37,736 bases of DNA, from assembly GCA_001799735.1 (NCBI GenBank), contig MGUA01000031.1, forward strand, positions 11,142 to 48,877. Reading direction: 5' to 3'. The DNA is from Elusimicrobia bacterium GWB2_63_22. Lineage in GTDB: Bacteria > Elusimicrobiota > Elusimicrobia > Elusimicrobiales > UBA9959. Position 1 is the first letter of the stretch, and every line of letters starts with the position of its first letter. Positions 18,302-23,075 of this stretch are shown here, in pieces. Both the position numbers and the translations under genes were made by a program. Under the pieces are notes generated by a model, which was not told the origin of the DNA, did no database searches, and saw only the letters and a list, made by a program, of their open reading frames with translations.

Positions 18302-20680
<2,379 letters not shown>

Positions 20681-20727
20681 ATCTATTATTGTCCCGGGCG
20701 CGCCATGGCGCAAAAAACCGCGTCCCC

Positions 20728-20789: not shown

Positions 20790-21398
20790 TTACTTCTTGC
20801 GGTGCTCGAGCACCGAGTCGATTATGCCGTAATCCTTGGCCTCGGCCGCGGAGAGGTAGAAATTCCTTTCCATGTCGGCGCGGATCTTTTCGGCCGTCTG
20901 GCCCGTATGCTTGGCCATGATCTCGATGAGGCGGGTCTTGCTCTCCTGCATTTCCTTGCTCTCGATCTCGATATCGGTGGCCTGGCCGGAGATGCCGCCG
21001 CCCCAGATGAGGGGCTGGTGGATCATGATGCGGGAGTTAGGCAGCGCGTAGCGCTTGCCCTTGGAGCCGGCGGCCAGCAGCACCGCGCCGAAGCTCATGG
21101 CCATGCCCATGCAGATGGTGGAGATGGGGGCCTTGATGAACTGCATCGTGTCATAGACCGCCAGGCCCGCCGTCACCATGCCGCCGGGGGAGTTGATGTA
21201 GAGGTTGATCTCCTTCTCGGAGTCGTCGGCGTCGAGGTACAGCAGCTGGGCGATGACGGTGTTGGCCGAGGCGGTGGAAACCGCGCCCTCGGGATCGCCG
21301 ATGAAGACGATGCGGTCGCGCAGCAGGCGGGAGTAGATGTCGTACCCCATCGCCGAGCCGGCGCCTTTCCAGGTTTCAATAATTGTCGGTATTATCAT
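20790..21398 (-). CDS. clpP: ClpP-family protease subunit with Asn at the catalytic Asp position
   Basis: This 202-residue ClpP fold protein would form the barrel protease used with AAA+ unfoldases. Catalytic Ser102 (GMAMSFGA) and His127 (IMIHQPL) are in place. The third triad residue, which lies in the 'ERD' segment before 'LSA' in E. coli (Asp171), reads ERN here: codon AAT at 20862-20864 gives Asn179. An Asn triad is known in Listeria ClpP1, which needs a second ClpP for activity. No clpX adjoins. GGAGG lies three bases before the ATG, and the gene follows tig after an 18-base gap. Confidence 0.96.
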
Positions 21399-21416: not shown

Positions 21417-22682
21417 TTAATTCTGCTCTTCCTTTATAGTGGCGCGTTCCTTCACCAGGGTCATCGTCTTGTTCTCCACCATCGAGGCCCTGATATACTC
21501 CTTGCGCTTGGCGAAGAGCTCGCGGCCCTTGGTCTTTTCATCTTCAGTGTTCAGCCGCGCCATCACCTTCTCCAGCTCCGCGTCCAGTTCGGCGTCGGTG
21601 GCCTCTATCTTCTCTTTCTTGGCGATGTGGTGCAATATATAGGTAAGGGAGAGGTTGCGCTCGGCCACGGGCTTGAGGCGCTCGAGCAGGGAGTCGTCCG
21701 GCAGATGCTGCTCCATCGGAGCGCGCTTCTTGAAGAGCTCCAGCAGTTCCTGCGCCTCTTCCCTGACCAGGGTGGGGGGCAGCGAGAGCGGGTTGTTCTT
21801 TATCAGCGCGTCCTCTATCTGGCCGAGCAGGTCCTTCTCGGTCTTCTCCAGGGAGCCCTGCTCCAGGAGCTTGCGGACGTTGGCCTTCAGCTCTTCGGCG
21901 GTCTTCACGCCGGCTTCCTTGAGGAAATTCTCGTCTATTTCCGGCACGACCTTCTGCTTGATCTCGGCCACGGTCACCTTGAAATGCATCTTCTTGTCGC
22001 CGAACGGCGCGTCGAACTCGCGGCTCTCGCCCTTCTTGGCGCCGATCACGGCTTCGGCCAGGCCGGCTATGGTCTGGGGGCTGGACAGGTCCACGATCTC
22101 GCCTTTCACCTCGCCGCCGGCCACCGGCTTGCCGTCCTCGAACGTGTCGTAGTCGACGATGACGAAATGGTTCTTGCCCGCGGCCTCGCCCTCGGCGGCG
22201 GGCTTGAGGTAGGCGTTGTATTCGCGGACCTGGTTGATGTACTTCTCAACCTCGGCGTCGGTGACCTTGTGCGCCTTGCGGGTCGCGGCGATCTTCTCGT
22301 AGCCTTTCGGCTCCAGGGAGGGGGAACATTCGAACTGGATCTCGAAGTAGAGGGACTTGGCGGGTTCGTACTTCACGTCCTTGAGAAGCGGGGCAACCAC
22401 GGGGTTGAGCTGCGCGCCTTTGAGGATCTCGGGCAGGGCGGCCTTGGCGGCGATGTCGAGGACCTCGTCCTTGACCATCGACGGGAACTGATCCTTGATC
22501 ATCCCGAGCGGCACCTTGCCAACGCGGAAGCCGGGGAGGCTGACCACGCTCTGCAGGTGGACCAGGGCCTCCTGGGAAGCTTCGCCGAGGGCATTGGCGT
22601 CCACGTTAACAGAGAAGACGTGCACGCAGCCTTCCTGCTTGATCTTCTTTATCTTGTCGCCGAAACCTAAAGTAATGTTCAT
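21417..22682 (-). CDS. tig: trigger factor
   Basis: This is a 421-residue ribosome-bound chaperone and peptidyl-prolyl isomerase acting on nascent chains. The N-terminal domain contains the ribosome-docking loop GFRVGKVP (about residue 51). The middle FKBP-like domain has FVIVDYDTF and GLAEAVIGAKKGE, and a helical C-terminal domain follows. Length matches the family (about 430). GGAGG lies six bases upstream of the ATG. The order tRNA-Leu, tig, clpP, lon resembles that of several bacteria, with clpX missing from its usual place between clpP and lon. Confidence 0.97.
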   Translation of the reverse strand: MNITLGFGDKIKKIKQEGCVHVFSVNVDANALGEASQEALVHLQSVVSLPGFRVGKVPLGMIKDQFPSMVKDEVLDIAAKAALPEILKGAQLNPVVAPLLKDVKYEPAKSLYFEIQFECSPSLEPKGYEKIAATRKAHKVTDAEVEKYINQVREYNAYLKPAAEGEAAGKNHFVIVDYDTFEDGKPVAGGEVKGEIVDLSSPQTIAGLAEAVIGAKKGESREFDAPFGDKKMHFKVTVAEIKQKVVPEIDENFLKEAGVKTAEELKANVRKLLEQGSLEKTEKDLLGQIEDALIKNNPLSLPPTLVREEAQELLELFKKRAPMEQHLPDDSLLERLKPVAERNLSLTYILHHIAKKEKIEATDAELDAELEKVMARLNTEDEKTKGRELFAKRKEYIRASMVENKTMTLVKERATIKEEQN

Positions 22683-22743
22683 TGTTTCCTCCGCCGCTGT
22701 TGTTTAAAAGCCTGGGCGCCGTTACCCCCGGGGCGCGCAACTA

Positions 22744-22827
22744 TGTCGGGACGGGGACTTGAACCCCGACGGGTGTTACCCCACATGGTCCTAAGCCATG
22801 CGCGTCTGCCGATTCCGCCATCCCGAC
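22744..22827 (-). tRNA. tRNA-Leu (anticodon TAG)
   Basis: This 84-base cloverleaf has acceptor GTCGGGA pairing with TCCCGAC, the T-arm GGTTCAAGTCC, a long variable arm (TGTGGGGTAACACCC) as expected for Leu, and anticodon loop CTTAGGA. The discriminator is A and no CCA is encoded. It lies 61 bases upstream of tig and may share its transcript. Confidence 0.96.
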
Positions 22828-22876
22828 AAGATAGTCCGCCGGCCGGACCGCCTTCTAAAGAGCCTGAAATAAATAA

Positions 22877-22947
22877 GGAGTAATGAGTTCTGAGTATTCC
22901 GGGAAGGTCTCGCCTTCTCCCTTTACTCGCCGACTACTCATTACTCC
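22877..22947. repeat. 71-base imperfect palindrome between two tRNA genes
   Basis: Outer 12-base arms (22877-22888 and 22936-22947) are perfect inverted copies of GGAGTAATGAGT. Inside them are GAGTA paired with TACTC and a GAAGG/CCTTC stem around a TCTCG loop. The element has no T tract, so it does not look like a terminator. It could be a REP- or MITE-like repeat or a structured RNA processing signal. Confidence 0.75.
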
Positions 22948-22965: not shown

Positions 22966-23037
22966 TGGGCCATACGGGATTCGAACCTGTAACCTTGCGC
23001 TTAAGAGGCGCCTGCTCTACCGTTGAGCTAATGGCCC
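22966..23037 (-). tRNA. tRNA-Lys (anticodon CTT)
   Basis: This 72-base cloverleaf has acceptor GGGCCAT with ATGGCCC, D-arm GCTC/GAGC, anticodon loop CTCTTAA and T-arm GGTTCGAATCC. The discriminator is A and no CCA is encoded. The top anticodon-stem pair looks like G-A. A strong promoter lies just upstream. Confidence 0.95.
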
Positions 23038-23047
23038 GTCGCTATAA

Positions 23048-23075
23048 ATTATACATAAACCTGAAAAAAAATCAA
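23048..23075 (-). promoter_or_regulatory. promoter of the tRNA-Lys gene
   Basis: On the minus strand TTGATT (23075-23070) and consensus TATAAT (23053-23048) are separated by 16 bases. The expected start falls a few bases before the tRNA 5' end at 23037. It may also drive tRNA-Leu and tig. Confidence 0.75.

Follow-up and report, generated by a model that had tools for sequence, protein, structure and literature searches.

The 71-base inverted repeat at positions 22877-22947 of the window (the whole stretch of 37,736 nucleotides analysed here) is probably an intrinsic terminator on the minus strand that stops only part of transcription and thereby acts as an attenuator inside a transcription unit. 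The order on the minus strand is promoter, tRNA-Lys, hairpin, T tract, tRNA-Leu, tig, clpP and lon; because both tRNAs, tig, clpP and lon lie on this strand, the relevant RNA is the reverse complement of the plus strand. In the transcript, the hairpin has a 5' arm (GGAGUAAUGAGU, 22936..22947) and a 3' arm (ACUCAUUACUCC, 22877..22888), both recognized by an inverted-repeat search and by arm conservation, which enclose an inner part with GAGTA/TACTC and GAAGG/CCTTC stems (22889..22935), and it is followed by a U tract (TTATTTATTT, 22867..22876) identified by counting T.

The sigma-70 type promoter (TTGATT, 16 nt, TATAAT; 23048..23075, minus strand; 10 of 12 in the promoter scan) ends 10 nt before tRNA-Lys (CTT), the first gene of the unit (22966..23037, minus strand; ARAGORN; Rfam tRNA, 65.8 bits). 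The genes beyond the hairpin, all on the minus strand, are tRNA-Leu (TAG) (22743..22828; ARAGORN), tig, encoding trigger factor (21417..22682; NCBIfam TIGR00115, 277.5 bits), clpP (20790..21398; NF001368, 287.4 bits) and lon (18302..20713; TIGR00763, 945.3 bits); relatives of the tig protein at 67-87% identity belong to Elusimicrobia or Elusimicrobiota MAGs, which places the window in this phylum. Gene order and promoter support the earlier placement of the repeat in a tRNA-tig transcript. The genus set comprises 32 genomes, 29 of which, the own genome included, have a readable spacer from tRNA-Lys to tRNA-Leu (for G001, G007 and G026 the search for the locus produced no strong match, just weak ones to tRNAs), and a perfect TATAAT lies 8-10 nt upstream of tRNA-Lys in 29/29 loci. 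For every one of the 29 loci, 58-100% of 60 shuffles reached the best promoter score of the spacer, and as little as 14 nt separates the T tract from tRNA-Leu (about 15 nt in L022 and L024). The tRNA-Leu(TAG) gene, with anticodon UAG, is the single gene with that anticodon among the 44 tRNAs found in the own genome. Since the spacer has no recognisable promoter and tRNA-Leu(TAG) is single-copy, transcription very probably reads through the hairpin into tRNA-Leu, although this argument would fail if there were a promoter of another type; and since RNA polymerase very probably must pass the hairpin, a stop there could only be partial or conditional.

The hairpin itself is real and well beyond chance. 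The sequence-only reading had described a palindrome between tRNA-Leu and tRNA-Lys with perfect 12-base arms, and the tRNA calls and the repeat search confirm both its position and its arms: GGAGTAATGAGT / ACTCATTACTCC (22877-22888 / 22936-22947) are 100% complementary over 12 bp each at a separation of 47 nt, and form the only inverted repeat of at least 12 nt reported between 22700 and 23200. Its plus-strand RNA folds at -33.3 kcal/mol, compared with a shuffled mean of -15.0 kcal/mol (sd 2.58, z -7.09), and 0/200 shuffles fold as well. The repeat was also correctly described as richer in A/T than its surroundings, with a GC fraction of 0.507 versus 0.61 and 0.64 in the 2 kb on either side. 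Folding of the hairpins of the window and the genus loci gives a stable stem-loop in the transcript, as in an intrinsic terminator; only 5 of the 12 arm pairs are G-C, so the G+C-rich stem that is usual, but not strictly required, in intrinsic terminators is absent. An Rfam search of the region matched both tRNAs and nothing else, including no known aptamer.

The earlier statement that the hairpin has no T tract holds for the plus strand only; on the transcribed minus strand, TTATTTATTT (22876-22867) abuts the stem directly on its 3' side. Counted over the 26 genus loci that have the hairpin (the same loci as in alignment A1; L030-L032 are left out because they lack such a hairpin), the transcribed strand has 6-9 T (mean 7.65) in the nine bases following the 3' arm, versus 0-5 T (mean 2.38) on the other strand. 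The U tract that an intrinsic terminator carries directly after its stem is thus found on the transcribed strand in 26/26 loci. The tract in the window is the poorest of the 26, with 6 T in nine bases broken by an A, and several relatives have 8-9 T without interruption. L027 and L025 lack the inner module, which leaves a 13-14 bp stem, a loop of 3-5 nt and a T run, and a terminator scan directly calls these two elements; the window hairpin is absent from the list of the scan, as its loop side exceeds the scan rule. Minus- and plus-strand RNAs have equal mean folding energies (-26.7 and -26.7 kcal/mol), and the minus strand is the stronger in 8/26 loci.

Within the genus, the hairpin is present in 26/29 readable loci. 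The sequence-only reading had named two findings that together would speak against its proposals, a lack of other copies in the genome and a lack of conserved pairing in relatives, and these have come apart: no other copy of the arms was found, but the pairing is conserved. Mean pairwise identity of the 11-nt arm stretches (26 loci, 325 pairs) is 0.95 for the inner 11 nt of the 5' arm and 0.91 for the 3' arm, that of the inner part of the hairpin is 0.72 (24 loci), that of the adjoining spacer is 0.41 before the hairpin and 0.23 after it, and that of the flanking tRNAs is 0.98 and 0.88. The inner part is absent in L025 and L027 and enlarged in L026, so that the arms stand anywhere from a few nt to about 100 nt apart. 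In the alignment 95.7% of outer-stem cells are paired. Over columns 3-13 of the outer stem (26 rows), the commonest pair is replaced in 20 cells, several of them common to related genomes and therefore representing fewer independent events than cells; 14 are G-U in the minus-strand RNA, two are A-C (G-U on the plus strand) and four are neither. The G-U changes keep pairing in the minus-strand RNA only. Compensatory double changes in the stem occur in two pairs, a number reached by 397/500 shuffles; because they are rare and not above shuffles, the case for pairing rests on kept pairs and G-U replacements. The arms are more constant in sequence than either pairing or a terminator needs. No conserved small reading frame was seen by eye across the hairpin in the genus spacer sequences, the frames differing between loci.

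The three genomes that have the locus without this hairpin (G002, G011 and G031; L030-L032) have no T tract and carry another hairpin at the same place. In the tig tree, in which many inner branches are weak and from which L089 was dropped because no tig frame was found, they group together as a single clade (100/99) next to two genomes with the hairpin (97/99), and a loss or replacement of the hairpin in this trio would agree with this. That their different hairpin lacks a T tract speaks for some role of structure here besides termination. Two further features of the spacer were noted: in L018, L012, L021 and L030-L032, the tRNA-Leu gene is immediately preceded by a stretch that, by eye, resembles its own 5' half, giving the impression of a partial duplication or replacement of the gene, and in several but not all loci (L004, L016, L018, L019, L020) a GCTCTTTAAAA-like motif, which we take to resemble boxA, lies between the T tract and tRNA-Leu.

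The tandem order of tRNA-Lys and tRNA-Leu looks old; it recurs in the sister family (f2; 24 genomes, of which 23 have a readable spacer between the two genes). There, 20/23 spacers are 17-44 nt long, one is 92 nt (L076), and the folded spacers other than L158 reach -4.3 kcal/mol or weaker. Two genomes (G049 and G050; L075 and L158) have an unrelated hairpin plus T run in this spacer, and this suggests that the device arose a second time, a stop signal having been added to the unit more than once.

In the own genome the hairpin is single-copy, both by DNA search and by exact 11-mer search. A covariance model built from the 26 hairpins gives strong matches in 26/32 genus genomes, at one place each and always at this locus; its weaker matches are the opposite strand of the same inverted repeat, except one in G013 (L157, G013:C42:10318-10390), an off-locus hairpin with a weak fit (E 0.084) and some likeness to the inner part. 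The exact 11-mer occurs off-locus at five places in the genus genomes (G003, G004, G018, G023 and G028, read as L084-L088), none of which has a hairpin plus T tract like that of the window (L087 has a partly similar hairpin); since the reversed control 11-mer occurs at 9 places in 9 of the same 32 genomes, these strays are about what chance provides. The 15-mer TAAARGGGCGAAGGC occurs at 11 places in the 32 genomes, 8 at this locus and 3 elsewhere (two in G009, one in G026). The inner module was considered as a mobile insert, for which no dispersed family was found, and a phage origin was considered, for which there were only short, weak matches to 7 phage records. A search of titles and abstract beginnings found no paper on this hairpin.

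Dispersed palindromes of another kind are found in sister genera. A pattern of four CACTNNN units occurs at 136 places in G034, 102 in G115, 73 in G203, 59 in G080 and 55 in G243, and is absent in 29/32 genus genomes, the own included (four places each in G004 and G005, one in G023). A separate pattern search gave 63 places; its backward control is void, as the 10-base core of that pattern reads identically backwards. The 20 of these 63 places that were read (L091-L110), together with L089 at about 1600-1660, are palindromes scattered between genes and made of degenerate 7-base units (CACTNNN / AGTGNNN), one of which lies directly behind tRNA-Leu in G034, where tig is unconfirmed. Palindromes of this kind, present in the five genomes above and absent in the close relatives G082 and G244, are patchy and possibly mobile. 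They resemble the window hairpin in being long intergenic hairpins with period-7, GAGTRNT-like units, and differ from it in having tens of copies, no T tract noticed among the copies read by eye, and no match to the covariance model. Applied to 10 family genomes, the model (R1) had a match below E 0.05 in 0/10; the best matches were in G080 (0.059) and G115 (0.13), and by eye both are palindromes of 7-base units. These two (L177 and L178) are long hairpins with differently spelled units (GCGTAAA / GAGTAAA), an indication that the palindromes fall into several sub-families. The arms in the window (GAGTAAT GAGT) share the period and flavour of these units, which offers a lead, and only that, towards a derivation of the window hairpin from 7-base-unit repeats.

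The earlier suggestion that the palindrome is a copy of a dispersed REP- or MITE-like element gains some appeal from the sister-genus palindromes, above all the one behind tRNA-Leu in G034, but is highly improbable: the own genome has one copy where a REP element requires many dispersed ones, the sole off-locus model match in the genus stands at E 0.084, no sister-genus palindrome in the 10 family genomes scores below E 0.05, and every one of the 26 strongly matching genomes has the element at this one locus, where a MITE would have copies at different sites. REP elements are reported to carry at one end an unpaired tag, GTAG or CGTC (available part of PMC3733652); this tag is absent here, the plus-strand flanks being AAATAA before the arms and GCCGCG after them. 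Copy counts already refute a living dispersed family in this genus. A palindrome read as double-stranded DNA, bound by a repressor as an operator, would account for a long, near-perfect inverted repeat with constant arms; this is scarcely credible, as a DNA-bound dimer could hardly tolerate arm spacings from a few nt to about 100 nt, G-U replacements break DNA symmetry while keeping RNA pairing, and the site lies downstream of the first gene.

Two explanations act, as the preferred one does, through the transcript. A nuclease specific for double strands, for example RNase III, could cut the hairpin to separate tRNA-Lys from the tRNA-Leu-tig precursor, the T run being incidental, much as the sequence-only reading had proposed. 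Placement between two tRNAs of one apparent transcript agrees with this, as does the other hairpin, without T tract, in the three genomes that lack this one, and the E. coli metY-nusA-infB transcript is reported to be cut by RNase III (available part of PMC5371410). Processing needs no T tract, yet 26/26 loci have one, and on the transcribed strand only, which puts termination ahead of processing; the sister-family spacers also speak against it, 20/23 being 17-44 nt long and the folded ones, L158 apart, reaching -4.3 kcal/mol or weaker. A processing site is thus unlikely: its place in the transcript stands, but the T tract points first to termination. A special case of the attenuator, in which a protein or RNA reads the GAGUAAUGAGU/ACUCAUUACUC arms and sets read-through into tRNA-Leu-tig-clpP-lon, is unlikely. 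Its attraction is the arm identity of 91-95% over 325 locus pairs, against 41% and 23% in the adjoining spacer, when pairing alone would permit many other arm sequences. No partner was found, a dedicated factor would serve one site as the genome has no second copy of the arms, and the genus spacers show no conserved small reading frame by eye; for the last reason, and because Rfam finds no aptamer, a leader-peptide or riboswitch attenuator was rejected. An elaboration of this special case, that the hairpin is perhaps a domesticated 7-base-unit palindrome whose GAGUAAU arms are read by a factor coupling tRNA supply to trigger factor, ClpP and Lon, is a rather speculative and unlikely one.

Partial termination is preferred on account of the strand-specific T tract in all 26 hairpin loci, the reduction of L027 and L025 to plain terminators called by the scan, the bias of departing cells towards G-U in minus-strand RNA (14 vs 2 of 20), the promoter before tRNA-Lys with none recognisable between it and the single-copy tRNA-Leu(TAG), and the T run with an unrelated hairpin that L075/L158 have in the corresponding spacer. 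Against it stand the poorest T tract of all in the window, the replacement of the hairpin by one without a T tract in L030-L032, double changes no more frequent than in shuffles, a minus-strand RNA no more stable than its complement, the 5/12 G-C arm pairs, and an arm constancy beyond the needs of a terminator. From the observed hairpin, strand-specific U tract, conservation and promoter we infer termination of partial efficiency, as follows. RNA polymerase would start at the strong promoter before tRNA-Lys, transcribe tRNA-Lys, and then meet the hairpin and U tract, where a fraction would stop and release tRNA-Lys alone; the remaining polymerases would read through into tRNA-Leu, tig, clpP and lon. 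One promoter would thus supply more tRNA-Lys than tRNA-Leu and proteostasis mRNA.

Like intrinsic (Rho-independent) terminators within operons, the window hairpin is a stem-loop that runs straight into a U tract on the transcribed strand and precedes needed genes for which no other promoter was seen; it differs in its A/U-rich stem of near-constant sequence and its variable inner module, and here termination is a prediction. The E. coli metY-rimP-nusA-infB leader also has a tRNA gene first and then housekeeping protein genes, with a structured spacer after the tRNA gene. It differs in its genes and in having an internal promoter, P2. Its transcript is, again unlike the proposal here, RNase III-cut (PMC5371410, available part). 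The internal-operon termination sites (ioTTS) of Methanococcus maripaludis work as proposed for the window hairpin, a partial stop inside an operon favouring the output of the upstream gene over that of the downstream one; they are archaeal and require poly-U and the factor aCPSF1, and the available part of the source describes no hairpin (PMC10450193).

A striking inverted repeat is thus probably an ordinary class of signal once it is read on the right strand, and in this lineage an old tRNA-Lys/tRNA-Leu/tig unit appears to have acquired an internal stop signal. The terminator type is well known, but this one is unusually constant across its genus, and the constant sequence of its stem arms is the unusual feature that makes a trans-acting partner testable. 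If the origin from repeats were true, a dispersed palindrome would have been turned into a fixed regulatory part.
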